Positions 30,134-44,880 of a stretch of DNA of 44,880 nucleotides are shown piece after piece (within the stretch, counting starts at the first letter, position 1; every line of letters starts with the position of its first letter). The notes below the pieces were generated by a model. That model saw only the letters and a list, made by a program, of their open reading frames with translations, was not told where the DNA came from and did not search any database. Source of the DNA: Bacteroidales bacterium (GTDB lineage: Bacteria > Bacteroidota > Bacteroidia > Bacteroidales > UBA932). The stretch is taken from positions 1-44,880 of the forward strand of contig JAFUMO010000057.1 in assembly GCA_017482565.1 (NCBI GenBank), given 5' to 3'. Made by a program: the position numbers and the translations under genes.

Positions 30134-30174
30134 TGTATGTGTTTTTTAAGTCTGTGCAAATGTATGTAATTTTT

Positions 30175-30302
30175 TTTATCGTTGTCCTTTTGTATAATAG
30201 ATTGGATATCAATAGTATAGGTTTTTAAATTATGTATGTTTTTAAATAGTCTGTTTTTAACTTATTGTAATTCATGTAATTGCAAAAAAGGACAACGATA
30301 AA
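30175..30302. repeat. 128-bp element with terminal inverted repeats (copy 2)
   Basis: Positions 30175-30191 and 30286-30302 are perfect 17-bp reverse complements (outer TTTATCGTTGTCC). The outer repeat shares CGTTGTCCTTTT with the element at 8302-8429 and the overall length is identical, 128 bp. The interior is A/T-rich and unrelated to copy 1. It fills the gap between GntP and the divergent ATP-grasp-like gene, whose -7 element starts 12 bases after its right end. Confidence 0.65.
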
Positions 30303-30314
30303 TGATTTTATGTG

Positions 30315-30322
30315 TAAATTTG
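30315..30322 (+). promoter_or_regulatory. -7 element abutting the ATP-grasp-like gene
   Basis: TAAATTTG ends seven bases before the ATG at 30330, leaving a leader of about two or three bases at most. Confidence 0.55.
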
Positions 30323-30329
30323 TAATTAT

Positions 30330-31499
30330 ATGACCAGGTGTATTTTCAATCCGGAGCACGATTTGTGCATTGCAGACGGCAGGGAGGATTACATCCCGCC
30401 TGCTTCTGCGGTAGAGTTTGGGGAGCAGGGACGGTGGATTGAAAGGTTTATGGGGCAGGGTGAGGAGATTGTTCCGTGGGGGTGGAACCGGGTACTGAGG
30501 AAGAGGCTGCAGCAGGAGGGAATTCCCACAGATCTGCTGCCAGATGATTCTGTACTGGATATGCTCCGCCGGAACTCCCGCAGGGAATTGGCGGTGGAGC
30601 TGCTTGGGAGGCTTTACGGGATGGAGGCGTGTGCATCATCCAGGTCCCGTATATGCAGGATGCTGACTCCGGATTACCGGGTTGTGGCGGGAAGCCTCGT
30701 TGAGATTAAAGAGTTTCTGGAGGAGAAGAGAAGAGTGGTGCTGAAGGCACCTTTGTCGGGAAGCGGAAAAGGGATTAGGTTTGTGACCGGGGAACTTACG
30801 GAGAGTGATTGTGGGTGGTGCCGGAGGATTCTGGAGAGGCAGGGGACAGTGGTTGTGGAGGAGAGGCTGGAGGTGGTGCAGGAACTGGCAATGCTGTTTG
30901 AGTATGAGATGCGGCCCGTTGCCGTTGTTGCGGATAGCGGTATAATGGAGCCGGTTGCCGGAGATTGTGGGGCAGGGGATGTTGAGGTCAGTTTCAAGGG
31001 GTATTCGCTGTTTTATGCCTTCAACGGCACATACAGGGGAAACTTGCTGGCTTCCAATGAATATATGGAGAATTTGTTGCGGCAGTGGATTCCGGTGGAG
31101 GTGCTGGAACGGGTGCGCTGCGGTGTGGAAAGATTTTTGAAGGAGAAACTGCAGGGAGGAGGGCTGCAGGAGGGTGACCCGCAGGAAAGTGCTCTGCAGG
31201 AGAGAGTGCAGCAGGAAATGGAACTGAAGGAGAGTGACCCGCAGGGGAAGGATGGCCTTAGGGGCTTTGTGGGGGTTGACCAGTTCATCTGCATGCGGAA
31301 AGACGGTGAGCAGCTGTTTTATAATCCGGCCGTGGAGATAAACTTGAGGATGACAATGGGGCATATTGCCCGGAATATATATGACCGGCACTCTGCAGAG
31401 TTCGGATTGGGAGAGGGAACGCATTGCTTTGAACCGTTGCGTGGAATCTTCCCTTGCGGCAGAGAAGCAGTTGCGGCAGACAAAATAGGCAGTGTATGA
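30330..31499 (+). CDS. ATP-grasp-like protein of unknown function with an internal repeat insertion
   Basis: A 389-residue cytoplasmic protein. It starts MTRCIFNPEHDLCIA, a signature I associate with an uncharacterised Bacteroidales family. ATP-grasp features are visible: VVLKAPLSGSGKGIRFV near residue 137 (nucleotide-binding Lys and Gly-rich loop), VVVEERLEVVQELAMLF near 175, and EINLRM near 340, which fits the Mg-binding E-x-N-x-R pattern. Residues about 270-310 are a Gln/Glu-rich stretch built from repeats of LQE/DPQ units that looks like an in-frame DNA expansion. Substrate unknown. It overlaps the next gene by four bases (ATGA). Confidence 0.7.
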   Translation: MTRCIFNPEHDLCIADGREDYIPPASAVEFGEQGRWIERFMGQGEEIVPWGWNRVLRKRLQQEGIPTDLLPDDSVLDMLRRNSRRELAVELLGRLYGMEACASSRSRICRMLTPDYRVVAGSLVEIKEFLEEKRRVVLKAPLSGSGKGIRFVTGELTESDCGWCRRILERQGTVVVEERLEVVQELAMLFEYEMRPVAVVADSGIMEPVAGDCGAGDVEVSFKGYSLFYAFNGTYRGNLLASNEYMENLLRQWIPVEVLERVRCGVERFLKEKLQGGGLQEGDPQESALQERVQQEMELKESDPQGKDGLRGFVGVDQFICMRKDGEQLFYNPAVEINLRMTMGHIARNIYDRHSAEFGLGEGTHCFEPLRGIFPCGREAVAADKIGSV

Positions 31500-31930
31500 A
31501 AAACGGGGGTAAAACACAGGATGAGTTCAATGCGGAACTGCCTGTAATTATTGAGAAATCACAAGTGAAATACTCGGAGAAGGGGCTTGCCGAGAAACTT
31601 GCCAAAGTGGCACGCAGGGCCGGGCTTAAGGTGGTATATGCAGTGATGCTGCTATATTATGCCCTGAACAGCCCAACAATCTCCACCAAGGACAAAAGTA
31701 TCATCTATGGAGCCTTGGGGTACTTCATACTCCCGTTCGACTTCATCCATGATTTTCTCCCTTTTGCAGGCTTCACCGACGATTTTGCAGCCCTTGCCTG
31801 GGCCATCTCAAAAGTAGTGAGGAACATAACTCCCGAGGTAAAGCGGCAGGCCAGGGAAAAGGTGACAGGGTGGTTCCCTGCCTCTGCATCAGACATCTCC
31901 ATGTTTGAGCAGGTGGAGAAGGGGAAGTAG
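31496..31930 (+). CDS. YkvA/DUF1232 family protein
   Basis: A 144-residue protein starting at the ATG that overlaps the preceding stop codon (ATGA). The DUF1232 core is present: SIIYGALGYFILPFDFIHDFLPF followed by GFTDDFAALAWAI, preceded by a hydrophobic helix (VVYAVMLLYYAL). The aspartates in these motifs are the conserved ones. The family is membrane-associated with no established function. Overlap with the ATP-grasp-like gene means translational coupling and probably a shared pathway. Confidence 0.85.
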   Translation: MKNGGKTQDEFNAELPVIIEKSQVKYSEKGLAEKLAKVARRAGLKVVYAVMLLYYALNSPTISTKDKSIIYGALGYFILPFDFIHDFLPFAGFTDDFAALAWAISKVVRNITPEVKRQAREKVTGWFPASASDISMFEQVEKGK

Positions 31931-32008
31931 CTTCTCCCTCAGCAGGCTATCTTCCCGACAGTTCATGCTGCGGGATATCACTGTCTGCCGTCCCCTTCTT
32001 ATGCCGGT

Positions 32009-32497
32009 TTACTGCTCCTGGCAGTATGGATACTCACTGCAGAAATCCCCTGAGGTGAAATTAGGCACAATAATCTCCTTGATGAATGATTTTGCCTGGG
32101 GCAGGTTGAAATACTCCCAATTGCCGCAGGTGAGCTCCGATGCTCCGGGAATGACATCTGCCCCCAAGATGTACTCCATACATCCAAGCATCATCTCTCT
32201 GAGGAATTCAGATGTATAGGACTTTGAAGTGAGCAGGTAGAACCCGGTAAGGCAGCCCATAGGGCCTATATATAATACGGTGGCCGAGAACTCGGCTGGG
32301 GTCATTGTCCTCAGGTAATGGGCCATGAAATGCTCCAGGGTATGGGCAACCTTCGGATCCATGAACAGCCCCTTGTGGGCTGCATCCTGCGGACGCACAA
32401 AACGGATATCGTATGTAAATATGCCGTTCACCGGTGACTCATATATACCCGGCACCAGCTTCTTGTGGTCTATGATGAAAGAATTTACTTTTTGCAT
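32009..32497 (-). CDS. luxS: S-ribosylhomocysteine lyase (AI-2 synthesis)
   Basis: A 162-residue enzyme from the ATG at 32497. It cleaves S-ribosylhomocysteine to homocysteine and DPD, the precursor of autoinducer 2, in the activated methyl cycle. Metal ligands His52, His56 (HTLEH) and Cys124 (ELTCGN) are present, as are Glu55 and the catalytic Cys82 in GPMGCLTGFY. Leu83 stands where many LuxS proteins have Arg. Length matches the family. A promoter with both elements lies upstream (32526-32555). The gene stands alone and is leftward. Confidence 0.96.
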   Translation of the reverse strand: MQKVNSFIIDHKKLVPGIYESPVNGIFTYDIRFVRPQDAAHKGLFMDPKVAHTLEHFMAHYLRTMTPAEFSATVLYIGPMGCLTGFYLLTSKSYTSEFLREMMLGCMEYILGADVIPGASELTCGNWEYFNLPQAKSFIKEIIVPNFTSGDFCSEYPYCQEQ

Positions 32498-32525
32498 GCT
32501 TTCTTGAAGTTTGTATTGTGCTGTA

Positions 32526-32555
32526 CAAAGGTAGTAAAAAAATATGCCCCACAAA
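32526..32555 (-). promoter_or_regulatory. luxS promoter
   Basis: On the minus strand TTTG (32555-32552) is followed after 18 bases by TACCTTTG (32533-32526). This rules out the longer in-frame start near 32554, which would lie inside the promoter. Confidence 0.65.
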
Positions 32556-32596
32556 CTTTGCCCGGATTTATGTCAAAACTTGTCAAAATGGCTCTG

Positions 32597-32604
32597 TAGC
32601 TTTG
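32597..32604 (+). promoter_or_regulatory. -7 element of the small hypothetical gene
   Basis: TAGCTTTG lies 13 bases before the ATG at 32618. Confidence 0.45.
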
Positions 32605-32617
32605 CAGAAACAATAAA

Positions 32618-32938
32618 ATGCAGGTTATGGAAAGGATAAAGAACACAGGATTCAGGATTACAATTGCCATTAATGCGGATGATATGATGCAGGGGAATGT
32701 CTCAACTTCAACCGCACATTATCTGGTGGCCAGCCTCCTGAGCAGACATGAACTCTACAACACCAGCATAAGGGAGATGCCGGGAATCATTTACGGCCAC
32801 AACTGCAGCTTCTTTACAGCATCCTTGCTGCAGGTGGATCTTCATGCCCCATGCCATACTTTTCCAAGCACCATTACTGAAGAACTCATGGAACATGTGA
32901 GCCGGGATGTATATGTGCAGAAATATGAGATAAGTTAG
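32618..32938 (+). CDS. Small hypothetical protein
   Basis: A 106-residue protein (MQVMERIKNTGFRITIAINAD) with a balanced composition, Cys and His residues in the middle (IYGHNCSFFTASLLQVDLHAPCH) and an acidic C-terminus. No signal peptide or membrane segment is seen. I do not recognise the family. It has its own -7 element (32597-32604) and is divergent from luxS. It ends 39 bases before the EamA gene. Confidence 0.6.
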   Translation: MQVMERIKNTGFRITIAINADDMMQGNVSTSTAHYLVASLLSRHELYNTSIREMPGIIYGHNCSFFTASLLQVDLHAPCHTFPSTITEELMEHVSRDVYVQKYEIS

Positions 32939-32949
32939 CGGTTTTTCCC

Positions 32950-32957
32950 TATTTTTG
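32950..32957 (+). promoter_or_regulatory. -7 element of the EamA transporter gene
   Basis: TATTTTTG followed by C lies 20 bases before the ATG at 32978. Confidence 0.5.
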
Positions 32958-32977
32958 CGGTAGCAACCGGAAACTTT

Positions 32978-33880
32978 ATGGGTGAGAAGAACAAACTGGC
33001 AGGGCACGCCGCCTGTTTTGGGGCGTATGCAATCTTCGGATTCAATATAATAGTGTGCAAGGACCTTATGGGGGGACATCTTGTTTCACCCCTTGCCATA
33101 TTTACCCTCCGCTCATTGGGGGCAGGGGCATTGTTCTGGCTGCTCTCATTGTTCCTCCCTTCTGAAAAGGTGGACAAGAAGGATTATCTGAAGATTCTGG
33201 CAGCATCATTCCTGGGCTTTTTCCTTACCCAGCTAACTTTCCTGGAGGCAATACCGGACATTACCCCCATGCACTGTTCCATAATCAGTGCACTTACTCC
33301 AATATATACGATGTTCATTGCTGCAGTGGTGCTTAAGGAACCCCTTACCATTAAAAAGGGGGCCGGTGTGCTCATGAGCTTGTGTGGTGTAGTATTCCTT
33401 ATACTCAATAATGCATCCGGGGGAGGCGTGGCAGAGAGCAAGCTGTCTGGAATAATGCTGATGTTCCTCAATGGGCTCAGCTTTGCGCTGTACCTTGGAG
33501 TCTTCAGGCCGGTGATTGTAAAATATTCGGTTGTGACATTCATGAAATGGATTTTTTTCTTTTCCATCTTCATGTCGCTTCCGTTTTCATTCAGGGAAGT
33601 GGCCTCTTTGAGTTGGCTGCATATTCCTGCAGTACAGCTCTGGGAACTTGCCTTCCTCATCATTATGGCAACATTTGTGAGCTATTTTCTCATCCCGTTG
33701 GGGCAGAAGCGCATCCGTCCAACCCTTGTGAGCATGTACAGCTATGTGCAGCCCATCATAGCCACAGTCCTGGGCATCTGCATGGGAATGGATACTTTAA
33801 CCTGGCAAAAAACACTCGCCGCCCTGATGGTATTTTCAGGGGTGTTCATTGTAAGCCGGAGCAGGACATTGTCCAATTGA
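32978..33880 (+). CDS. EamA/DMT-family transporter
   Basis: A 300-residue inner membrane protein with ten hydrophobic segments forming two EamA repeats (about residues 8-140 and 155-295). Repeat hallmarks include SIISALTPIYTMFIAAVVLKE-like sequence (in pieces) in the first half and the equivalent LVSMYSYVQPIIATVLG in the second. Members export or import small metabolites such as amino acids, purines or drugs; the substrate cannot be read from sequence. Single gene with its own promoter. Confidence 0.92.
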   Translation: MGEKNKLAGHAACFGAYAIFGFNIIVCKDLMGGHLVSPLAIFTLRSLGAGALFWLLSLFLPSEKVDKKDYLKILAASFLGFFLTQLTFLEAIPDITPMHCSIISALTPIYTMFIAAVVLKEPLTIKKGAGVLMSLCGVVFLILNNASGGGVAESKLSGIMLMFLNGLSFALYLGVFRPVIVKYSVVTFMKWIFFFSIFMSLPFSFREVASLSWLHIPAVQLWELAFLIIMATFVSYFLIPLGQKRIRPTLVSMYSYVQPIIATVLGICMGMDTLTWQKTLAALMVFSGVFIVSRSRTLSN

Positions 33881-33949
33881 GTTATACTTAAGCCCAGGCT
33901 CTGGTCTCATTGTCTTGGGGAGCTAATCATTCAGCATTTCAAAACAAAA

Positions 33950-33981
33950 ACCGGAAAACAGAATTGCTTCCGTTTTCCGGT
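33950..33981 (-). terminator. Rho-independent terminator of dnaK
   Basis: On the minus strand ACCGGAAAAC (33981-33972) pairs with GTTTTCCGGT (33959-33950), followed by a T-rich tract (TTTTGTTTTG). It lies about 50 bases after the dnaK stop codon. Confidence 0.8.
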
Positions 33982-34032
33982 CTTGGCTAAAAACTTATAA
34001 ATAAGTGGTTTTTTGTTGTTTTGGTTTTCTTG

Positions 34033-35949
34033 TTACTTCACTTCTTCAAAGTCAACGTCAGTTACCTCGCCGTCCTGGCCGTTGTTCTGAGAACCTGAGC
34101 CCGGATTAGGACCCTGCTGGGCACCGCCCTGAGGACCGGCTGCCTGTGCGGCTTTTGCCATATCTTCGCTGGCTGCATGCCAAGCTGCGTTCAATGCCTC
34201 GGTAAGCTTGTCAAGCTCAGCAATGTTGCCTGCCTTGTGAGCCTCCTTGAGCTTGTTGGTAGCGTCCTCAATTGCAGATTTTTTCTCTGCAGGGATCTTG
34301 TCACCATACTCCTTGAGGTTCTTCTCGCTCTGGAATACCATTGCGTCTGCGTTGTTGAGCTTATCAATCCTCTCGCGCTCCTCTTTATCTTTTGCCTCGT
34401 TTGCCTTTGCCTCGTCACGCATCCTCTTGATCTCATCCTCAGACAATCCCGAAGAAGCTTCAATCCTTATCTGCTGCTCCTTGCCTGTAGCCTTGTCTTT
34501 TGCAGATACATTAAGGATACCGTTTGCATCAATGTCAAATGTCACCTCAATCTGTGGAACACCTCTTGGAGCAGGGGTGATGCCATCCAGGTGGAAGCGG
34601 CCGATAGTCTTGTCATCTTTTGCCATTGGCCTCTCGCCCTGGAGCACGTGGATTTCCACTGATGGCTGGTTGTCAGCTGCGGTTGAGAATACCTGCGATT
34701 TCCTTGTAGGGATGGTGGTGTTGCTCTCAATAAGTTTTGTGAACACGCCGCCGAAGGTCTCAATACCCAATGAAAGCGGAGTTACGTCCAACAGGAGCAC
34801 ATCCTTTACATCTCCGGTAAGCACACCGCCCTGGATTGCTGCACCAATTGCCACAACTTCGTCGGGATTAACGCTCTTGTTAGGCTCTTTGCCAAAGAAC
34901 TTCTTCACAATCTCCTGGATTGCAGGGATACGGGTTGATCCGCCCACCAAAAGTACCTCATTGATGTCTGAAGCTGAAAGGCCTGCATCCTGGAGGGCCT
35001 TGCGGCAAGGCTCAATTGTCCTCTGGATCAATGAATCTGCCAGCTGCTCGAATTTTGCTCTTGTAAGGGTCTTTACCAAGTGTTTTGGAATACCGTTTAC
35101 AGGCATGATGTAAGGGAGGTTGATCTCAGTTGAAGTCTGGCTTGAAAGCTCAATCTTTGCCTTCTCTGCTGCCTCTTTCAATCTCTGCAATGCCATAGGG
35201 TCCTTTGAAAGGTCTATGCCGTCATTCTCGCTCTTGAACTCGTTTACAAGCCACTCAATGATAACGTGGTCAAAGTCATCACCTCCAAGGTGAGTGTCAC
35301 CGTTGGTTGATTTTACCTCAAACACGCCGTCACCCAACTCAAGGATTGAAATATCAAATGTACCGCCGCCAAGGTCAAATACAGCAACCTTGGACTCCTG
35401 GTCCTTCTTGTCAAGACCGTATGCAAGTGCAGCGGCTGTAGGCTCATTGATGATACGCCTTACCTTAAGGCCTGCAATTTCACCGGCCTCTTTGGTGGCC
35501 TGCCTCTGTGCATCGTTGAAGTATGCAGGAACTGTAATTACAGCCTCGTTAACCTCCTGGCCCAGGTAATCCTCTGCAGTCTTCTTCATTTTCTGGAGCA
35601 CCATTGCAGAAATCTCCTGTGGAGAATACATTCTGCCGTTGATGTCAATTCTTGGGGTGTTGTTGTCACCCTTTACTACTTTATAAGGTACTCTTGAGAT
35701 TTCGCTTGCAATGTGGTCATATGTCTCACCCATAAATCTCTTGATAGAGAAAATGGTGTTTGTTGGGTTGGTAATAGCCTGTCTTTTTGCAGGGTCACCA
35801 ACTTTTCTCTCGCCACCCTCTGTAAATGCAACTACAGAAGGGGTAGTTCTCTTGCCCTCGCTGTTTATGATAACTGCAGGCTCATTACCCTCCATAACTG
35901 CTACGCAGCTGTTGGTAGTACCAAGGTCAATTCCAATAATTTTTCCCAT
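34033..35949 (-). CDS. dnaK: Chaperone DnaK (Hsp70)
   Basis: A 638-residue cytosolic ATP-dependent chaperone. The nucleotide-binding domain carries [14 protein letters not shown] at the start, [13 protein letters not shown] near 196 and [10 protein letters not shown] near 338. The interdomain linker [12 protein letters not shown] lies near 390, then the substrate-binding domain, and a Gly/Gln-rich tail ending [12 protein letters not shown], the EEVD-like end of bacterial DnaK. dnaJ and grpE are not adjacent. A strong Shine-Dalgarno AAGGAGA lies eight bases before the ATG (35964-35958), unlike the other genes here. A terminator follows. Confidence 0.98.
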
Positions 35950-35957
35950 AATTCTGT

Positions 35958-35964
35958 TCTCCTT
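35958..35964 (-). promoter_or_regulatory. Strong Shine-Dalgarno sequence of dnaK
   Basis: The minus strand reads AAGGAGA, eight bases before the dnaK ATG at 35949. This is exceptional in the window, where most starts have no purine-rich ribosome binding site. Confidence 0.65.
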
Positions 35965-36206
35965 TATATCTTTTACGTTTTTATTTCATTTTTCTCTTCC
36001 CGACAGATTTTCACATATCTTTTCTCCGCCGCGGACATTTCCCTTCAGAGCCAACTTTGTGCCAAACGGGTTTTTCTGACAAAGTGGCAGAGGTACACCC
36101 GTGTCACGACTTACATTGTACTCGAGTCACGACTTCCACCGATTTTTGCTTTTATTGTTTTTTTTCAGTTGCTTTGCATACAGAATTAACCCTAAAAAAC
36201 ACAATT

Positions 36207-37022
36207 ATGTCAGTAGAGGGAAAACAGCGGGTTATTACAACCCATAAACTATTGGAAATGAAAGTTAAAGGTGAGAAGATAGCAATGCTCACCGCATATG
36301 ATTATACCTTTGCCGGAATAGTGGACCAGGCAGGGATTGACATTATCCTTGTAGGTGATTCGGCAGCTAATGTGATGGCAGGACACGAGACCACACTGCC
36401 AATTACCATAGACCAGATGATATATCACGCGCAGAGTGTGATGCGGGCTGTAAAGAACCCGCTGGTTGTGTGTGACATGCCGTTTGGTACTTATCAGGGT
36501 AATCCAAAGGAGGCCGTGAGAAGTGCCATAAGGATAATGAAGGAATCTGAAGTGGATGCCGTAAAGCTGGAGGGGGGGAGTGAGATTATGGAGAGCGTGG
36601 AGCGCATCCTCTCTACAGGCATTCCGGTAATGGGTCACCTTGGCCTCACACCCCAGTCTATCCACAAATTCGGCACATATGCCGTGAGGGCAAAGGAGGA
36701 GGCTGAAGCCAACAAGCTCATAGAGGATGCCATTGCACTTGAGAGGGCAGGCTGCTTTGCAATTGTACTGGAGAAGATCCCTGCAGCTTTGGCAAAGAAA
36801 GTGTCTGAGACAGTGAAGATCCCTACAATAGGTATAGGCGCCGGCCCTCATTGCGACGGCCAGGTGCTGGTGATGCACGATATGCTGGGATTGAACAATT
36901 CCTTCTCTCCGCGGTTTTTACGTAGGTATGCAAACCTTCACGAGGAGTCCCTCAATGCCATCCGCAACTATGTGGCAGATGTAAAGAGCTGCGATTTCCC
37001 TAACGAGAAGGAGGCATATTAA
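36207..37022 (+). CDS. panB: 3-methyl-2-oxobutanoate hydroxymethyltransferase
   Basis: A 271-residue enzyme from the ATG at 36207. It adds a hydroxymethyl group from methylene-tetrahydrofolate to alpha-ketoisovalerate, the first step of pantothenate (coenzyme A) synthesis. Family motifs: [11 protein letters not shown] near residue 26, [12 protein letters not shown] at about 46, DMPFGTYQ near 86, VKLEGG at about 115, [11 protein letters not shown] at 137, and [14 protein letters not shown] near 210. The longer in-frame start at 36057 adds 50 residues of implausible sequence. The 184 bases upstream of the ATG contain a short direct repeat (GTCACGACTT twice) but no clear promoter. panC and panD are not adjacent. 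Confidence 0.96.
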
Positions 37023-37170
37023 AAGTATCCTCTTCCCGACAGATACTTGCAGTCCACCCATACAGGCGATTTGGGCACGGAAATGCCCCGGAACGTGCCG
37101 GAGGCTGGGACAGTTTGGGGGGATGGAGGTACAAAAGGAAAAAATTGTCGGGAAGCAAAACTGAAAAGAT
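37023..37170. other. Intergenic stretch with an inverted pair of the window's frequent decamer
   Basis: CTTCCCGACA at 37032-37041 and its reverse complement TGTCGGGAAG at 37146-37155 flank about 105 bases without an ORF of coding character. The copy at 37146 is close to the start of the next gene. No promoter match was found. The pair could fold or be bound symmetrically; this is inference. Confidence 0.4.
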
Positions 37171-37926
37171 ATGGCAGTGCAGGAGAGAAACATGAATATT
37201 GCGGCTGAGGGGGGATCACCTGTGTACAGGAGGCTCCCGCAGCAGGAATTTGATGATATGGCAGAGAGGATCCTCTATGAGGACAACCATCTGCTCATCT
37301 TCAACAAGCGTTCCGGGGAGATTGTGCAGGCAGACAAGACAGAGGATGAATGTCTGAGCACAACCCTCAAGGCTTTTGTGGCCCAGAGGGACCACAAGCC
37401 GGGTGCAGTGTTCATGGGGGTGGTTCACCGTCTGGACCGACCTGTAAGCGGTGCCGTAATCTTTGCCAAGACATCAAAGGCGCTGGGCCGCCTGAACGAG
37501 GCGTTCAGGACCGGTGAGATGCACAAGACCTACTGGGCCGTGGTGTGCAGCCGCCCCAAGGAGGACGAAAAGCTCCTTACCCACTACCTTACCCGTAACG
37601 AAAAGCAGAACAAGACATACACAAGCCTCACCCCGAAACAAGGGGCAAAGGAGGCCCGCCTACGCTACAAATTCCTCAGGGCCACAGAGAGATACTTTCT
37701 CCTGGAAGTAGAACTGTTCACCGGCCGTCACCACCAGATAAGGGCCCAGCTTTCTGCCATAGGCTGCGTCATAAAAGGGGACCTCAAATACGGCGCACCC
37801 CGCTCCAACCCGGATGGGAGCATTTCCCTCCACTCCCGACAAATAAGGTTCATCCACCCTGTCCGCAAGGAAGAGATGACCGTTGTGGCACCGCCATTCT
37901 GCCCGGTGATGTGTTCGTGTATGTAA
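37171..37926 (+). CDS. RluA-family RNA pseudouridine synthase
   Basis: A 251-residue enzyme isomerising uridine to pseudouridine in rRNA or tRNA. The catalytic Asp89 lies in VVHRLDRPVSG (84-94); other family blocks are YWAVV near 132, FTGRHHQIRAQLSAIG near 200 and KYGAP near 218. There is no N-terminal S4 domain, so it resembles the short RluA-type enzymes. The ATG at 37171 or 37192 may be used. This is the last gene of the moderate-G+C chromosomal block; base composition shifts to AT-rich just after it. Confidence 0.93.
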   Translation: MAVQERNMNIAAEGGSPVYRRLPQQEFDDMAERILYEDNHLLIFNKRSGEIVQADKTEDECLSTTLKAFVAQRDHKPGAVFMGVVHRLDRPVSGAVIFAKTSKALGRLNEAFRTGEMHKTYWAVVCSRPKEDEKLLTHYLTRNEKQNKTYTSLTPKQGAKEARLRYKFLRATERYFLLEVELFTGRHHQIRAQLSAIGCVIKGDLKYGAPRSNPDGSISLHSRQIRFIHPVRKEEMTVVAPPFCPVMCSCM

Positions 37927-38010
37927 ATTCCTTCTGTGACATAAATTGTCACACTCCAAGAATACCTTTACACTCTGGATATTAGAGATGATACTACAGA
38001 TTTTTTTTCA

Positions 38011-38018
38011 TAAATTTG
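38011..38018 (+). promoter_or_regulatory. -7 element before the BRO-N gene
   Basis: TAAATTTG lies 40 bases before the ATG at 38059. No TTTG -33 element was seen at the usual distance. Confidence 0.45.
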
Positions 38019-38058
38019 TAGGGGAAGTCTTTTGTTTAATTCATAGAATTGAAAAGGT

Positions 38059-38910
38059 ATGACACAGCACAATGCAGTTAGAATTTTTGAAGAGAAGAAA
38101 GTTCGTACCGTGTGGGATGACGAACAAGAGAAATGGTATTTTTCAGTAGTGGATATTGTTTCAGCCTTAACACAAAGCAATAATCCGCAAATATATTGGA
38201 GGGTCTTGAAAAAGAGATTGATAGAGGAAGGAAATGAAACCGTTACAAATTGTAACGGTTTGAAAATGTTAGCTCCGGATGGAAAAATGAGAAAGACTGA
38301 TGTGGTTGATATGGAGCAGGCATTCAGACTTATACAATCAATCCCATCACCAAAGGCAGAACCGTTCAAACTATGGATGGCACATGTGGCTGCTGAACGT
38401 ATAAACCAGATTCAAGATCCGGAATTAAGTATAAATCAAGCACTGTCAGACTATAGGCGTTTGGGATATTCAGAAAATTGGATTAACCAAAGACTGAAAA
38501 GTATAGAGATTCGTAAAGATTTGACGGATGAGTGGAAAGCACATAATGTAAAAGAAGGTCTCCAATTTGCCACTTTAACAGATATTATATACCAGGCTTG
38601 GGCAGGGATGACTGCAAAAGAATATAAAAGGTTCAAGGGGTTAAAGAAAGAGAATCTCAGGGATAATATGTCCAATGAAGAACTGGTGCTGAATATGTTG
38701 GCAGAATTGTCCGCTACCAGTATATCCAAGGTAAAAGATCCGCAATCCTTTAAGGAGAATATGGAATGTGCCGCAGAAGGTGGAGATGTGGCACGTGTTG
38801 CCAAAGAGACTCTAGAATCAAAGACCGGCAAACCAGTGGTTACACAAAAATCTGCAAAAGAGATGATTATTGGCTATAAGGATAATAATGCAGCGGCAGA
38901 GGAAATATAA
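38059..38910 (+). CDS. BRO-N / DinD-like protein (phage antirepressor family)
   Basis: A 283-residue protein. The N-terminal ~110 residues match the BRO-N domain seen in phage antirepressors (RTVWDDEQEKWYFSVVDIV, then YWRVLKKRL and the D-G-K segment LAPDGKMRKTDVVD). The rest resembles the DNA-damage-inducible protein D region (YRRLGYSENWINQRLKS, IRKDLTDEWKAHNVKEG). DinD-like proteins occur in prophages and beside restriction-modification genes; E. coli DinD acts on RecA filaments. The gene is AT-rich and contains a 25-bp palindrome within its reading frame. It lies directly before the tracrRNA and cas9. A link to CRISPR function is inference. Confidence 0.85.
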   Translation: MTQHNAVRIFEEKKVRTVWDDEQEKWYFSVVDIVSALTQSNNPQIYWRVLKKRLIEEGNETVTNCNGLKMLAPDGKMRKTDVVDMEQAFRLIQSIPSPKAEPFKLWMAHVAAERINQIQDPELSINQALSDYRRLGYSENWINQRLKSIEIRKDLTDEWKAHNVKEGLQFATLTDIIYQAWAGMTAKEYKRFKGLKKENLRDNMSNEELVLNMLAELSATSISKVKDPQSFKENMECAAEGGDVARVAKETLESKTGKPVVTQKSAKEMIIGYKDNNAAAEEI

Positions 38911-38994
38911 AAAGAAAATGCCCCGTTGAAGGACGAGGCAACCTAATGTTTTCACAACGGAATAATCCTTATTGTGAATTGCTTCTATTATTGT
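38911..38994 (-). ncRNA. tracrRNA of the type II CRISPR system
   Basis: Leftward from about 38994, the minus strand carries an anti-repeat-like 5' part (AGAAGCAATTCACAAT), then the nexus AAGGATTATTCCGTTGTG and AAAACATTAGG, a layout characteristic of tracrRNAs of Bacteroidota type II-C systems. It ends in a hairpin, GCCTCGT (38939-38933) with ACGGGGC (38926-38920), followed by ATTTTCTTTTT. A promoter with correct spacing lies immediately upstream. The anti-repeat predicts a CRISPR repeat beginning roughly RTTGTGAATTGCTT. The start is estimated from the promoter, the end from the terminator. Confidence 0.85.
38920..38939 (-). terminator. tracrRNA terminator hairpin
   Basis: A 7-bp stem (one G-U pair) with a 6-nt loop, followed on the minus strand by a T-rich tract. 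It lies ten bases from the stop codon of the convergent BRO-N gene. Confidence 0.75.
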
Positions 38995-38999
38995 AAGCA

Positions 39000-39029
39000 C
39001 AAAGGTAGAAAAAAAATAGAATAGTGCAA
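39000..39029 (-). promoter_or_regulatory. tracrRNA promoter, overlapping the cas9 leader
   Basis: On the minus strand TTG (39029-39027) is followed after exactly 19 bases by TACCTTTG (39007-39000). The -33 end is only four bases from the cas9 ATG at 39033, so tracrRNA and cas9 initiation regions overlap divergently. Confidence 0.75.
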
Positions 39030-39032
39030 TAT

Positions 39033-42000
39033 ATGAAAAGAATTTTAGGACTTGATTTGGGAACCAACAGTATTGGATGGGCTGTGGTGAATGAAGCGGA
39101 GAATTCAAATGAAACTTCCTCTATTGTAAAATTGGGGGTAAGGGCGATTCATTATGATAATTTTGTGAGTTCAGATACCGGTAAGGAACTAAAGGGAGAT
39201 GCTAGTGAATTTTTCAAAAAAGGAAAAGGAGTATCTCCAAATAAAGCTCGTACTGATAGTAGAGGTATGCGACGCAATTTGCAACGCTACAAACTACGAC
39301 GTGATGAACTTAAGAAAACTTTGTGTAATGCGGGTCTCATTACTGATAGTACTATTCTCTCTGAGAATGGAAATAGAACTACATTTGATACTTACAGGCT
39401 GAGAGCAAAATCTGCAAAAGAAGAAATATCTCTTGAAGAATTTGCCAGAGTATTGTTTTTGATTAATAAAAAAAGGGGATACAAGAGCAGTAGAAGAGCA
39501 AAATCCAATGATGAAGGGGCTTTGATTGATGGAATGGAGGTAACAAAGATGTTGTATAATGAAAATTTAACACCAGGTGAATATGTATTGCGTTTATTGG
39601 AAACGGGTAAAAATTATATCCCTGACTTCTATAAATCAGATTTACAGAAAGAACTTGATCTAATCTGGGAAACTCAAAAGAAGTATCATCCCGACGTACT
39701 TACAAATGAACTCAAGACTCAAATAGCAGGAAAAGGGAAACAGAATACAGCAAAAGTATTCTTGTCAAAACACAATATTTATACAGCGGACAATAAGGGG
39801 AAGGAGAAAAAACTGCAGGCATATAGGTGGCGTGTGAATGCTTTGAGCAAGGAGGTGCCCCAAGATATTTTAGCGTATATTATAAGTGACTTGAATGGTA
39901 TTATCAATAATTCAAGCGGTTATTTAGGTGCAATAAGTGACCGTAGTAAAGAACTTTATTTCAACCGGCTTACAGTTGGTGAGTATTTGATGTCAAGAAT
40001 TGAGGATAATCCGCATTTCAGTACAAAAAATGTAGTTTTTTACAGACAAGATTATCTCGATGAATTTGAAAAGATATGGGAAAACCAAGCAAAGTTCCAT
40101 ACGGAACTGACGAATGAACTTAAACATCAAATAAGGGACATTATAATATTCTATCAAAGACCTTTGAAATCCCAGAAAGGGCTGGTTTCTATTTGTGAAT
40201 TAGAGAATAAAGAGATTGAGATAGAAATTGAAGGTGAAAAGAAAAGGAAAATTATAGGCAGTAAAGTATGTCCTAAATCATCTCCTATATTCCAGAATTT
40301 CAAAATATGGCAAATACTGAATAATCTTGAGGTTAAGGGTGGTATTAACAGACCATTACTTGAAGAGGAAAAAGAGTTGCTATATAAGGAACTTTCATAT
40401 AGAGATAAAATCACAGACTCAGAAGTTTTGAAACTATTATTCACCAATACTAAAGGTTTGTCCTTAAACTATAAGAGTATTGAAGGGAACAGGACACAAG
40501 CAGCACTTTTCAAAGCATACGGACAAATTATTGAAATGAGTGGACATGGTGAATATGATTTTGAAAAGATGCAATATGAACAAGTAATAAAATTAATTGA
40601 TGAAATTTTTGAGACACTAGGTTTTAATACAGACATACTGCATTACAATGTAAATCTTGGAGAGAAAGAGATAGAAAGGCAACCGATGTATCAATTATGG
40701 CATCTTCTTTACTCCTACGAAGGTGATAAATCGCAAACGGGAACAGACTCATTGATTGATGCTATTTATACCAAATACGGTTTTGATAAGGAATATGCTA
40801 AAATCCTTGCACATATTTCATTTCAGGATGGTTATGGCAATTTAAGTGCAAAAGCCATCAAGAAGATAATGCCTCATCTGATTGCAGGAAATGATTATAG
40901 TAAAGCGTGTTCTTTAGCAGGATACAGCCACTCAAAAAATTCTTTGACTAAAGAAGAAATTGCCAGTAAAGTTCTTGTAGATAAATTGGAAGAGCTCCCA
41001 AAAAACAGTTTGAGGAATCCTGTGGTTGAGAAGATTCTTAACCAGATGGTTAATGTAGTTAATGCTACAATTGATGCTTACGGTAAACCGGATGAAATCA
41101 GGATTGAGTTGGCAAGGGAACTTAAGAAGAGTGCTAAAGAGCGGGAAAAAGATACTGAGAATATTAGCAAGGTTACAAAGGAGTATGAAGATTATAGAAA
41201 AATCATTCAGCAGGAATATGGCTTCTCACATATAAGCAGAAATGATATTATCAGATACAGACTTTATAAAGAGTTAGAGCCAAGAGGATATAAAACATTG
41301 TATTCAAATACATATATTCCAAAGGAACAATTGTTCAGCAAGTCTTTTGATATAGAACACATTATTCCTCAATCCAGACTGTTTGATGATTCTTTTTCCA
41401 ATAAGACATTGGAAGCGAGAGATGTCAATATAGAAAAAGGAAATGCTACAGCTTATGATTACGTGTTGGGGAAGTATGGCCAAGAAAAGATTAGTGACTA
41501 CGAGACAGCTGTAAATGATTTATTTAAAGACAAAGGAGGTGTGTCAGAGTCTAAGCGCAGGAAACTTTTAATGAAAGGTGTAGATATTGGAGAAGGTTTT
41601 ATAGCCAGAGATTTGCGTGATACCCAATATATTGCAAAAAAAGCAAAGGAAATACTTGGGAGCATAGTAAGGACCGTGACATTAACTACAGGGTCTATAA
41701 CAGACCGTCTCAGAGAAGATTGGCAACTTATAGATATTATGCAGGAGCTTAATTGGGATAAGTATGACAAAATTGGATTGACTGAGGTGATGGATGGCAG
41801 GGATGGACAAAGGATAAAAAGAATCAAGGACTGGACAAAACGCAATGACCATAGACATCACGCTATGGACGCATTAACCATTGCCTTTACAAAAAATACC
41901 CATATTCAGTATTTGAATAATTTGAATGCCAGGAGTGATAAGAATTCTGTGATTTATGCTATAGAAAACAAAGAACTTGAGCGTGATAAAAACAATAAGT

Positions 42001-43202
42001 TGAGATTCAAAGCTCCTATTGAAAATTTCAGAGAGGAGGCAAAAAAACAACTTGAATCAGTTTTAGTGTCAATAAAAGCTAAAAATAAGGTTGTTACAAG
42101 AAATATTAACAAGTCAAAGAAAAATGGAGGAGTTAACAAAAAGATACAACTTACACCTAGAGGACAATTGCATTTGGAAACTATCTATGGCAAATCATTG
42201 AGATATAGTACTAAAATTGAAAAAGTCGGATCAGCTTTTACAGCAGAATATATTGCTAATGTTGCAAAAAAAAGTGAGCGTGACGCGTTGCTTGCCAGAC
42301 TTCTTGAATATGATGGAGATCCTAAAAAAGCATTTACAGGTAAAAATAGTTTAGATCAGAACCCTGTCTATATTGATGATGCAAAGACTATAACAGTTCC
42401 TGCAAAAGTAAAAGTTGTAACTTTTGAGCCAGTATATACAATAAGAAAAGATATCAGTCCTGGCCTTAAGATTAACAAGGTGATTAATAAGGGTATAAGA
42501 ACAATCCTTGAGCAGCGCCTTTCAGAGTATAATGGTGATGCAAAGAAAGCATTCTCCAACTTGGACGAGAATCCTATATATCTTAATAAAGGAAAGGGAA
42601 TTACAATCAAAAGAGTTACAATATCCGGTATCAGCAATGCGGTAGCCTTACACGATAAAAGAGATAAAGAAGGAAACTTGATGCTCGATTCCAGTGGAAA
42701 TAAAATACCTGTAGATTTTGTGAGTACCGGTAATAATCATCATGTGGCGATTTATAGAGATGCGGATGGTAATTTACAAGATGTTATGGTTTCATTTTAT
42801 GAAGCAATATGCAGAGTATGTAACGGAGATCCAATAATTGACACAAACTTCAAATCAAAAGAGGGATGGAAATTCTTGTTTACCCTAAAGCAAAATGAAT
42901 ACTTTGTATTTCCTAATGAGGATACAGGATTTAATCCTCATGAAATAGATCTACTTAATCAAGATAACAATAGTCTTATTAGCCCTAATTTGTATAGAGT
43001 ACAAAAACTCTCGAAAGTAGGATATGGAAATTCTTTTGTGAGAGATTATGTATTTAGACATCATTTAGAGACAAATGTAGATGAGAACAAAAGTTTAAAG
43101 GGTATTACATACAAACAATATAAATCTTTGGGATTTGCTGATGGTATTATTAAAGTAAGAATTAACCACATAGGACAAATAGTTGCAGTAGGAGAATATT
43201 GA
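39033..43202 (+). CDS. cas9: CRISPR-associated endonuclease Cas9 (type II, II-C-like)
   Basis: A 1389-residue RNA-guided DNA endonuclease from the ATG at 39033 (a GTG at 39024 lies within the tracrRNA promoter). RuvC-I: ILGLDLGTNSIGWAVV with Asp8. The Arg-rich bridge helix is near residues 70-95 (RTDSRGMRRNLQRYKLRR). RuvC-II: IRIELAREL with Glu692. HNH: FDIEHIIPQS with His776, then SNKTLEARDVN. RuvC-III: HRHHAMDAL with His943 and Asp946. All nuclease residues are present, so an active enzyme is expected. The C-terminal third contains a duplicated module (about 1089-1115 and 1162-1187). Size fits Bacteroidota II-C proteins. AT-rich composition suggests acquisition. Confidence 0.98.
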   Translation: MKRILGLDLGTNSIGWAVVNEAENSNETSSIVKLGVRAIHYDNFVSSDTGKELKGDASEFFKKGKGVSPNKARTDSRGMRRNLQRYKLRRDELKKTLCNAGLITDSTILSENGNRTTFDTYRLRAKSAKEEISLEEFARVLFLINKKRGYKSSRRAKSNDEGALIDGMEVTKMLYNENLTPGEYVLRLLETGKNYIPDFYKSDLQKELDLIWETQKKYHPDVLTNELKTQIAGKGKQNTAKVFLSKHNIYTADNKGKEKKLQAYRWRVNALSKEVPQDILAYIISDLNGIINNSSGYLGAISDRSKELYFNRLTVGEYLMSRIEDNPHFSTKNVVFYRQDYLDEFEKIWENQAKFHTELTNELKHQIRDIIIFYQRPLKSQKGLVSICELENKEIEIEIEGEKKRKIIGSKVCPKSSPIFQNFKIWQILNNLEVKGGINRPLLEEEKELLYKELSYRDKITDSEVLKLLFTNTKGLSLNYKSIEGNRTQAALFKAYGQIIEMSGHGEYDFEKMQYEQVIKLIDEIFETLGFNTDILHYNVNLGEKEIERQPMYQLWHLLYSYEGDKSQTGTDSLIDAIYTKYGFDKEYAKILAHISFQDGYGNLSAKAIKKIMPHLIAGNDYSKACSLAGYSHSKNSLTKEEIASKVLVDKLEELPKNSLRNPVVEKILNQMVNVVNATIDAYGKPDEIRIELARELKKSAKEREKDTENISKVTKEYEDYRKIIQQEYGFSHISRNDIIRYRLYKELEPRGYKTLYSNTYIPKEQLFSKSFDIEHIIPQSRLFDDSFSNKTLEARDVNIEKGNATAYDYVLGKYGQEKISDYETAVNDLFKDKGGVSESKRRKLLMKGVDIGEGFIARDLRDTQYIAKKAKEILGSIVRTVTLTTGSITDRLREDWQLIDIMQELNWDKYDKIGLTEVMDGRDGQRIKRIKDWTKRNDHRHHAMDALTIAFTKNTHIQYLNNLNARSDKNSVIYAIENKELERDKNNKLRFKAPIENFREEAKKQLESVLVSIKAKNKVVTRNINKSKKNGGVNKKIQLTPRGQLHLETIYGKSLRYSTKIEKVGSAFTAEYIANVAKKSERDALLARLLEYDGDPKKAFTGKNSLDQNPVYIDDAKTITVPAKVKVVTFEPVYTIRKDISPGLKINKVINKGIRTILEQRLSEYNGDAKKAFSNLDENPIYLNKGKGITIKRVTISGISNAVALHDKRDKEGNLMLDSSGNKIPVDFVSTGNNHHVAIYRDADGNLQDVMVSFYEAICRVCNGDPIIDTNFKSKEGWKFLFTLKQNEYFVFPNEDTGFNPHEIDLLNQDNNSLISPNLYRVQKLSKVGYGNSFVRDYVFRHHLETNVDENKSLKGITYKQYKSLGFADGIIKVRINHIGQIVAVGEY

Positions 43203-43203
43203 A

Positions 43204-44205
43204 ATGGAACAGAATATAATTTTGTATATCAGTAAGGATGGCAAGAGTAAGGTTGGACTTTATGCAAAAGATGGGGATGTGTGGTTGAACCAGTTGCAGT
43301 TGGCTGAACTTTTTGCCACCTCGAAGCAGAGTATTAGTTACCATATATCTAATATATTAAGAGAGAAGGAGTTGGTGAAAGAGTCAGTTGTCAAAGAATT
43401 TTTGACAACTGCATTGGATGGCAAGACATATAATGTTTCCTATTATTCATTGGAAATGATACTTGCTATAGGGTATAGAGTAAAAGGAATAAGAGGTGTG
43501 CAATTCAGGCAATGGGCAACAATACATTTATCTGAATATTTGGTAAAAGGTTTTATTATTGATGATGAAAGGTTGAAGAATCCAGATGGAAGGCCAGATT
43601 ATTTTGATGAGTTATTACAGAGAATAAGGGATATAAGGGCTTCAGAAAAACGGTTCTATCAAAAGTTAAGGGATTTGTTCAAACTTAGTGTTGATTATGA
43701 TGCATCTGATAAAGCAACACAAATGTTTTTTGCAAATGTCCAAAATAAATTACTGTATGCTATAACAGGTAATACTGCAGCGGAATTGGTTGTGAAAAGA
43801 GCCGATAAAAACAAATCTAATATGGGGCTTACATCATGGGAAGGAAGTATTGTGAGAAAACACGATGTGGTAATTGCAAAGAATTACTTGTCGGAAGATG
43901 AATTGGATTCATTGAACAGACTTGTTGTATTATTCCTGGATACAGCAGAGTTCAGAGCAAAGAATAGAACAAGCCTTACGCTCTCATTCTGGAAAGATAG
44001 TGTTGATAAATTGCTGATAATGAATGATCAGGTTATTTTACAAGGTAAAGGAACTATTAGTAATGAACAAATGGAAAGAATAGCTAATAAGGAGTATGAT
44101 GAATATAATGCCTTAAGGAAACGGTATGAAGCCGAAAAGGCAGATGAAGAGGATATGAAACTTTTATTGGATGTGCAGAGCAGATATGGAAAGAATAATC
44201 CATAA
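43204..44205 (+). CDS. RhuM-family protein inside the cas operon
   Basis: A 333-residue cytoplasmic protein of the virulence RhuM family (Virulence_RhuM, PF13310): WLNQLQLAELFATSKQSISYHI near residue 27 is its helix-turn-helix-like start, then YYSLEMILAIGYRVKGIRGVQFRQWA (in pieces) near 80-105 and the conserved C-terminal FWKDSVDKLLIMND. The ATG is one base after the cas9 stop (43202), and cas1 starts 11 bases after its own stop, so it is co-transcribed with both. The molecular function of RhuM is not established; family members are often found near type I restriction genes. An accessory role in this CRISPR system is inference. Confidence 0.88.
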   Translation: MEQNIILYISKDGKSKVGLYAKDGDVWLNQLQLAELFATSKQSISYHISNILREKELVKESVVKEFLTTALDGKTYNVSYYSLEMILAIGYRVKGIRGVQFRQWATIHLSEYLVKGFIIDDERLKNPDGRPDYFDELLQRIRDIRASEKRFYQKLRDLFKLSVDYDASDKATQMFFANVQNKLLYAITGNTAAELVVKRADKNKSNMGLTSWEGSIVRKHDVVIAKNYLSEDELDSLNRLVVLFLDTAEFRAKNRTSLTLSFWKDSVDKLLIMNDQVILQGKGTISNEQMERIANKEYDEYNALRKRYEAEKADEEDMKLLLDVQSRYGKNNP

Positions 44206-44216
44206 ATAATATATCA

Positions 44217-44777
44217 ATGATAAAACGTACGCTTTATTTCGGGAATCCGGCGTATTTATCATTAAAAGATTGTCAAATGGTAGTAAGGATGCCCGAAATT
44301 GCAAAGGCAGATTTGCCGGAGTTGTTTGAAACCAAAACCACTAAAACCATTCCAGTTGAGGATATTGGGATAGTGGTTTTGGATAACAAACAGATAACTA
44401 TAACGCATGGCTTGCTGGAAGCCTTGCTGGAGAACAATTGCGCTGTCATAACCTGTGACAGTTCCAGATTGCCAGTTGGCTTGATGCTTCCGTTGTGTGG
44501 ACATTCAACCCAAAATGAACGGTTCAGATCCCAGCTGAATGCTTCGCTTCCTCTCAGGAAGCAATTATGGCAGCAAACAATTCAGGCAAAGATTAAAAAT
44601 CAAGCAAAAGTCTTGCAAAGTCAAGGCTGTACAGCAACAAATATGCTCTCTTGGGATGAAAAGGTTAAAAGTGGGGATGCTGAGAACCTTGAGGCCCGGG
44701 CTGCAGCATATTATTGGAAGAATGTATTTCCGTTTATTGGTAAGCCTCCGGCAAAGTGCATCTTGCAAAGTTTATAA
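44217..44777 (+). pseudogene. cas1: CRISPR-associated Cas1, C-terminally truncated
   Basis: The reading frame matches type II Cas1 from MIKRTLYFGNPAYLSLKD through YYWKNVFPFIG (residues 1-175), including the first metal-ligand Glu159 in NLEARAAAYYW. From codon 176 (44742) it departs into KPPAKCILQSL and stops at 186. Normal Cas1 has about 290-320 residues; the missing part holds the remaining catalytic His and Asp/Glu. So this protein should not integrate spacers. The break coincides with the start of a hairpin and decamer-repeat region. I cannot tell whether the rest of cas1 lies beyond the window. cas2 is not seen. Confidence 0.85.
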
Positions 44778-44821
44778 AGTTAACCCGGCTTTGATCAAAG
44801 TGTCAAAGTCGGGTTAACTTT
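44776..44821. repeat. 19-bp hairpin directly after truncated cas1
   Basis: The arms 44776-44794 and 44803-44821 are reverse complements over 19 positions with a single G-U type mismatch (outer AAAGTTAACCCG) around an 8-nt loop. The left arm overlaps the cas1 stop codon. It could act as a terminator, although no T tract follows, or be the end of an inserted element. Confidence 0.65.
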
Positions 44822-44880
44822 ATTGAAGTCGATCGACTTTGTATGAAGTCGCTTAACGTCGATTGAAGTCCTTAGAGTCG
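44821..44880. repeat. Degenerate 10-bp-period repeat at the window edge
   Basis: Successive decamers from 44821 read TATTGAAGTC, GATCGACTTT, GTATGAAGTC, GCTTAACGTC, GATTGAAGTC, CTTAGAGTCG. The core TTGAAGTC recurs at 20-base spacing, with weaker or inverted half-copies between. The same phase extends weakly back through the hairpin (TGTCAAAGTC at 44801). There are no spacers, so it is not a CRISPR array. It continues past the window end. Confidence 0.6.

Follow-up and report, generated by a model that had tools for sequence, protein, structure and literature searches.

In Bacteroides fragilis, two open reading frames (ORFs) with RhuM domains were placed between cas1 and cas9 of the type II-C CRISPR-Cas locus in 2017, and according to that account 'most' of 40 II-C strains carry additional ORFs at this position (PMC5704556). 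In a second study, according to its passages on the subject, RhuM-like genes near restriction-modification (R-M) genes were proposed to encode a toxin domain that modifies proteins (PMC3710099). The same junction can be empty, as in the part of the Riemerella report that gives its cas9-cas1 interval as 12 bp (PMC5006608). Here we analysed a rhuM gene that lies between cas9 and cas1 in a Bacteroidales bacterium (assembly GCA_017482565.1, contig JAFUMO010000057.1). The stretch analysed, hereafter the window, is the entire contig (44,880 bp; C49 in our numbering) of a draft genome of 2.10 Mb in 70 contigs. We found that the cas9-cas1 junction is a recurrent accessory site in Bacteroidota, and we favor the view, with a probability of roughly 45%, that RhuM is a swappable, operon-embedded and probably DNA-binding accessory of DNA-targeting defence, positioned at the boundary between effector and adaptation genes and perhaps acting on broken DNA. 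The operon comprises the following features:

39033..43202, + strand: cas9 (type II-C), 1389 amino acids (aa); TIGR01865 at 524 bits, with RuvC_III and HNH_4
43204..44205, + strand: rhuM, 333 aa; PF13310 at residues 61-307, match to PADLOC PDC-S05
44217..44740, + strand: cas1, 5' part only, with ~172 codons homologous to Cas1 (TIGR03639), in an ORF that runs to 44777
44741..44880, no strand assigned: contig-end repeat with a hairpin, interrupting cas1 and common to the end of contig C40

The cas9 stop codon (TGA, 43200-43202) is followed by a single A at 43203 and then by the rhuM ATG at 43204, while the rhuM stop codon (TAA, 44203-44205) precedes the cas1 ATG at 44217 by 11 bases (44206-44216), all on the + strand; the spacings given in an earlier note on this DNA, which was made from the sequence alone, were thus exact. 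Its description of the three genes as similarly AT-rich suits cas9 and rhuM (34.2% and 34.6% G+C) better than cas1 (42.4%), against 49.0% for positions 1-38000 of the window. The Cas9 score places the protein far above the NCBIfam cut-off of 100 for type II Cas9, and Cas1 matched TIGR03639 at 165.7 bits (cut-off 120; E = 1.3e-48) over positions 1-159 of 278 only, the gene being cut. RhuM matched PF13310 at 361.6 bits (Pfam cut-off 33.7), and no other Pfam family was detected in it at E 0.01, including the Fic domain that marks Fic/DOC toxins. The stretch that is homologous in DNA to the locus of the nearest relative, where cas1 is intact, extends no further than 44740, and window positions 44734-44879 (query bases 35-180) match the end of contig C40 of the same assembly (positions 52688-52832 of 52,832 bp) at 99%. 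Because Cas1 homology ends at 44740 and the repeat takes over, the ORF end at 44777 is a chimeric stop. No second Cas1 match was found in the assembly, which leaves the fragment at the contig end as the sole one; its interruption may reflect either an insertion or an assembly break.

The closest Cas9 relative, from Bacteroidales bacterium SIG149 (L036), showed the same arrangement, with Cas9 and RhuM proteins 82.6% and 85.8% identical to those of the window. Its order is cas9-rhuM-cas1-cas2-array, with an intact Cas1 of 308 aa, a Cas2 of 110 aa and repeats of 47 nt, and the flanking genes dnaK, panB and rluA are common to both loci (panB and rluA were named from PF02548 and PF00849, and dnaK was recognised by eye). 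No further ORF of at least 80 aa that fits csn2 or cas4 was seen on reading L036; the window contig itself ends inside cas1. The ratio of nonsynonymous to synonymous divergence (dN/dS) between the two loci was 0.096 for cas9, 0.042 for rhuM, 0.102 for cas1 (172 codons) and 0.013-0.029 for three flanking genes. With a dS of 2.02, near saturation, the precise value for rhuM is uncertain; that the gene is strongly constrained is nonetheless clear, and purifying selection on it has been strong in the lineage of the window.

To place this arrangement in a wider context, we surveyed 231 Cas9 loci, consisting of 80 of 509 confirmed GTDB matches, 30 loci from the same family (the window's included), 120 places at order and phylum level that were chosen by hand, with some near contig ends skipped, and L134, a locus from the same genus as the window. 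Clustering at 95% Cas9 identity left 221, of which 202 had cas1 downstream; the 19 without it were left out. The cas9-cas1 gap was shorter than 150 nt in 141 of the 202, and it held a protein resembling REP-associated tyrosine transposases (RAYT-like) in 28, DinD in 12, RhuM in 6, other content of at least 500 nt in 9 and 150-500 nt in 6. All 48 RhuM, DinD and RAYT-like gap ORFs, distributed over 46 loci, lay on the cas9 strand. The gaps made up 58,925 of the 2,845,348 bases surveyed, and the three families occurred elsewhere in these loci 8 times, a count affected by the RAYT model, which was built from gap copies and may miss RAYTs elsewhere. As a control, among 189 loci in which both cas1 and cas2 were seen, the cas1-cas2 interval reached 150 nt or more in 8 (maximum 664 nt), whereas the cas9-cas1 interval was at least 500 nt in 50.

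Four of the six RhuM junction loci were intact (the window's, L036, L134 and L095, in that order below), while L072 has a broken frame and lies behind another gene, and L252 is an 80-aa remnant. In the intact loci, the RhuM ATG follows the cas9 stop by 1, 1, 1 and 2 nt, and cas1 follows the RhuM stop by 11, 18, 10 and 11 nt; for L095 the start was taken as the ATG two bases past the cas9 stop rather than the listed TTG. Junction DinDs likewise begin 1-59 nt after cas9. With ~86 near full-length RhuMs in 199 genomes of the family by row count (~0.43 per genome), and on the assumption of a random spread over ~1,900 gene junctions per genome, ~0.05 RhuM would be expected by chance in 202 junctions versus the 6 seen. 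The placement and recurrence of RhuM at the junction are near certain, and the window order is not a chance juxtaposition, since the same order recurs in other loci.

The RAYT-like Y1 proteins were commoner at the junction than RhuM (28 of 202: L038, L040, L041, L046, L068, L070, L081, L086, L092 and 19 others). They matched PF01797 weakly, below the cut-off in the three scanned, and several of these junctions have REP-like palindromes directly behind the cas9 stop. Among the matches listed for 198 genomes of the order, at least 12 RAYT-like places lie behind a Cas9 on the same strand by our reading of the table, most being loci already counted; only one background ORF matched the RAYT model, so that a comparison of junction with background RAYTs yielded nothing. 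Proteins of DUF6155 type also recur at the junction (L046, 14249-14767; L086, 15039-15596; and the L255 gap), alone or before a RAYT-like gene; the Pfam match was scanned for L046 only.

RhuM also occurs at the corresponding boundary of another CRISPR type. A type I-C operon (L151, 5574-8144) has the order cas3-cas5-cas8-cas7-rhuM-cas4-cas1-cas2, with 6 nt between cas7 and rhuM and 0 nt between rhuM and cas4, and L159, from the same genus as L151, has a like arrangement with RhuM between cas7 and cas4 (for L151, Cas7 and Cas4 were named by Pfam, cas1 by our own model and the others by eye). The I-C position is the effector-adaptation boundary once more. Outside cas operons, RhuM was found within 100 nt of HsdM and HsdS (L171), HsdS (L145), a type III Res with Abi_C (L149), MmeI (L161), GmrSD (L167), ISP (L163), AbiJ (L155), Fic (L150), a D12 methylase (L173) and an AAA_15 ATPase (L148). 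In the last case (L148, 5023-6144), RhuM precedes the ATPase by 14 nt and a gene that by eye resembles a Toprim-type protein follows, possibly a further defence operon. Of the 56 background RhuMs, 45 had a neighbour on the same strand no more than 100 nt away, which was not in every case a defence gene. At least 11 of the 56 had a Pfam-scanned defence-type neighbour within this distance, a lower bound because 20 of 57 listed neighbours were scanned, in a choice biased to the defence-looking (4 of the 20 were not of defence type, and one HNH gene was left uncounted). R-M systems as the dominant RhuM neighbourhood were ruled out, as even the most frequent neighbour cluster within 5 kb appeared in at most 4 of 57 contexts. 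On viral contigs, an alignment query recovered RhuM relatives at 80 loci from 136 pattern matches, whereas a single-protein query of viral contigs found no relative.

The window contains a second accessory gene, which lies upstream of cas9 and, like the interruption of cas1, had escaped the earlier note:

38033..38906, no strand assigned: dinD insertion; the syntenic relative L036 has 11 bp instead (blastn)
38059..38910, + strand: DinD-like gene, 283 aa; Bro-N PF02498, PADLOC PDC-S13; an upstream accessory gene outside the group of junction DinDs
38911..39010, - strand: predicted tracrRNA with anti-repeat and terminator-like hairpin; duplex with array repeat -29.9 kcal/mol, hairpin followed by a T run

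The insertion boundaries were set by blastn matches of window positions 37935-38032 and 38907-39102 to L036 positions 9766-9861 and 9873-10070. The insertion adjoins the predicted tracrRNA terminator, its empty site being visible as the 11 bp in L036, and no transposase gene was found inside 38033-38906. In the tracrRNA search over 30000-44800, the runner-up place scored -29.2 kcal/mol, nearly equal to the chosen one, so that the duplex taken alone is weak evidence. The array repeats of this genome are on contig C45, apart from the cas9 contig, and a RhuM-like remnant (L124, 1241-1321; 27 aa, 56% identity, E = 2.7e-5, best of 61 queries) adjoins the end of that array.

For the models of both RhuM and DinD from the window, the top structural match was DdrC of Deinococcus radiodurans (PDB 8u0g, 7udi, 7qvb and 8u1j), a damage-response protein that binds DNA. 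The N-terminal domain of RhuM aligned on DdrC over 95 of 98 residues at 3.7 A, while the root-mean-square deviation of the whole chain was 10.6 A, DdrC chains being 214-228 residues long versus 333 for RhuM. By sequence, RhuM had no NCBIfam DdrC match at E 0.01 and DinD scored 16.2 bits against a cut-off of 150, which places both outside the DdrC equivalog; searches of PDB sequences gave nothing useful. When RhuM and DinD were compared as profiles, an initial RAYT alignment that served as one control produced a spurious 99% match to both, which for RhuM disappeared after realignment. A DdrC-like fold has partial support, with a clear resemblance in the DinD of the window and a moderate one in RhuM.

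One competing explanation, which we consider rather unlikely, is that RhuM is an embedded back-up defence, that is, an autonomous anti-phage gene that profits from being carried on the Cas9 transcript and steps in on its own after a failure of Cas9, for instance as a protein of abortive or toxin type. RhuM matched the candidate phage defence family PADLOC PDC-S05 over its full length (PDLC04852, E = 1.4e-140 over 2-327), and DinD matched PDC-S13 (E = 1.8e-131). The PDC set reportedly derives from genes that lie within immune loci. The neighbours listed above, among them HsdM/HsdS, MmeI, GmrSD, ISP, Abi_C, AbiJ and Fic, point the same way, as does the toxin domain proposed for RhuM near R-M genes in the relevant passages of PMC3710099. 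Against this reading stands the non-random placement along the operon, at the effector-adaptation boundary in both II-C and I-C systems; moreover, RhuM has no Pfam domain except PF13310, and its predicted fold appears to resemble DNA-binding proteins.

The histories of the junction genes were then compared with those of their effectors. When 5 Cas9-linked RhuMs were placed in one tree with 56 others, the Cas9-linked label needed 4 changes, at least 3 of them forced by well-supported branches; without the broken, long-branch L072, 3 changes are needed and all are forced, and a single Cas-dedicated clade of the four intact copies was rejected (approximately unbiased test, p = 1.75e-51). This tree does not separate gain from loss, and L095 and L134 are neighbours in it; their RhuMs are 73% identical and their Cas9s 30%. 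Mapped onto a Cas9 tree built with FastTree from 201 loci, the 6 RhuM rows require 4 changes, the 12 DinD rows 10 and the 28 RAYT rows 21. L134 (genome G140) has a Cas1 and a Cas2 82% and 89% identical to those of L036 and a nearly identical repeat, whereas compared with the window its Cas9 is 31%, its RhuM 46% and its Cas1 80% identical, with RhuM again 1 nt after cas9. Judged from these sequence identities, the window and L134 differ in the effector and its RhuM and share the adaptation module; when the surveyed Cas1s of 150 aa or more were compared with the partial Cas1 of the window, those of L036 and L134, both loci with RhuM, came closest.

The earlier note had proposed that RhuM may be an accessory component of this Cas9 subtype rather than a random insertion. 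Its second half held up: rhuM is not an isolated recent insertion, as its arrangement is repeated in the locus with the closest Cas9, dN/dS is low and the gene recurs in other Cas9 lineages at a spacing of 1-2 nt. The survey it suggested found that spacing kept in the four intact loci. Co-evolution with cas9, which the note had suggested testing, was not supported: the RhuM tree is incongruent with Cas9, an outcome that the note had named beforehand as speaking against its proposal. RhuM recurs at the junction, but as a fixed subtype component it is ruled out by its presence at 6 of 202 junctions. It is better described as an exchangeable accessory at a recurrent site that DinD and RAYT-like genes also use.

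The junction DinDs behaved differently. The 11 full-length copies fall on one side of a branch from 44 other DinDs (support 89/73, and 90% of 200 bootstrap trees; 92/83 in a first tree), and 0 of 500 shuffles gave a value as low, the other DinDs having been chosen by likeness to the window's upstream DinD, mostly from one family. The latter is placed among the non-junction DinDs. No match to cas9, cas1 or cas2 was found around L334 (4.9 kb) and L335 (6.0 kb), whose DinDs are the most closely related to the junction group; the subfamily in the broader sense therefore also occurs outside Cas loci. L029 has a Cas9 ~30% and a DinD 74% identical to those of other junction-DinD loci, which indicates that the junction DinD crosses Cas9 lineages yet keeps its slot. 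DinD distances track those of Cas9 (Mantel r = 0.57, p = 0.0025; r = 0.75 without L029) but not those of Cas1 (r = 0.16, p = 0.20). Found only at the cas9-cas1 junction in this sample, DinDs of this group may well be dedicated partners of Cas9. In eight junction DinDs (L047, L051, L052, L057, L062, L063, L084 and L102), residues ~48-80, a stretch of the Bro-N domain, occur in two or three sharply different versions that resemble swapped specificity segments, while the rest of the junction DinDs is highly conserved.

These histories bear on a second alternative, which we regard as unlikely: that the junction is a recombination seam between modules where mobile genes collect, same-strand inserts surviving as tolerated passengers by sparing cas1 expression. 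Cas9 and Cas1 histories can indeed differ, as in L134 and the window, several of the RAYT-like genes at the junction have REP-like palindromes beside them, RhuM genes are for the most part dispersed, 2 of the 6 junction RhuMs are decayed, and close relatives of junction DinDs occur without cas genes. Against this reading stand the low dN/dS that rhuM keeps across a deep divergence and the junction DinDs, which cross Cas9 lineages as a group and track Cas9 rather than Cas1. No clean sign of recombination emerged either: the Cas9-Cas1 correlation in DinD loci was low (0.26, or 0.21 in a second locus set), which is not distinctive because r varied from 0.03 to 0.78 among sets of 10 empty loci drawn at random. 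That RhuM is a local transcription regulator, adjusting cas operon expression through its HTH-like N-terminal domain, is very improbable, as the gene lies inside the operon rather than at its start and recurrence at the effector-adaptation boundary of unrelated systems is not required of a regulator.

We therefore return to RhuM as an exchangeable, probably DNA-binding accessory. The observations beneath this reading are the operonic placement, the recurrence at the boundary in several lineages, the uniform strand, the purifying selection and a boundary common to other gene kinds; a helper role rather than an accident is suggested because rhuM, or a gene of one of two further kinds, occupies this slot again and again among related bacteria. 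A link to DNA damage has been published, in that DinD was named, in a passage of PMC4849656, among proteins that remove RecA filaments, and LexA, in a passage of PMC3998124, bound a rhuM site in vitro. As a hypothesis for the mechanism, RhuM would be translated together with Cas9 and, like DinD in other loci, might bind nicks or ends that Cas9 makes or that Cas1-Cas2 handle, changing their fate; most likely, recombinational rescue of cut invader DNA would be hindered or the chromosome shielded after self-cutting, and RecA or Cas1-Cas2 might be affected. RhuM has so far been called a virulence or toxin protein with a function that is not known, and its recurrence at the boundary, the slot and similar predicted fold that it shares with DinD, and its presence in some R-M operons together suggest a testable one, the handling of DNA breaks.

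A bolder extension, which we hold to be quite doubtful, is that the CRISPR effector-adaptation boundary is a docking site for exchangeable proteins that bind DNA breaks, with RhuM and DinD forming one DdrC-like superfamily and the Y1 RAYT-like proteins as a third occupant. Such proteins would couple cutting to memory by holding ends cut or nicked by Cas9 and passing them to, or keeping them from, Cas1-Cas2 and RecA. If this were true, they would fill a role otherwise left to the host in II-C systems, which lack csn2 and cas4, and the I-C case, with cas4 present, would show that the role is not that of a mere Cas4 stand-in. The survey also shows a defined position at which compact II-C systems take up accessory genes, which makes cas9-cas1 gaps a place to seek CRISPR helpers.

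Among the texts examined, which covered few subscription papers and preprints, only PMC5704556 placed RhuM in a Cas9 locus, and no account was found of the boundary as a shared site, of the junction DinD group, of the I-C parallel or of a DdrC-like RhuM fold. The same literature yielded nothing relevant on REP-associated tyrosine transposases with CRISPR or cas1, nor on DinD with CRISPR, and no paper on the DdrC structure was found. The PADLOC entries PDC-S05 and PDC-S13 match the window's RhuM and DinD, but they give names only, with neither a Cas9 junction nor a mechanism. The B. fragilis loci resemble the window's in that a II-C system of Bacteroidota carries RhuM genes at its cas9-cas1 junction; that account, in its relevant passages, is descriptive, concerns two ORFs and deals with neither relatives nor selection, nor with structure or with what else occupies the site (PMC5704556). 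The RhuM/DOC genes of R-M and PrrC loci share with the present case the position of RhuM-like genes inside DNA-targeting defence operons, but there a protein-modifying toxin was proposed, and the passages concerned include no CRISPR operons (PMC3710099).
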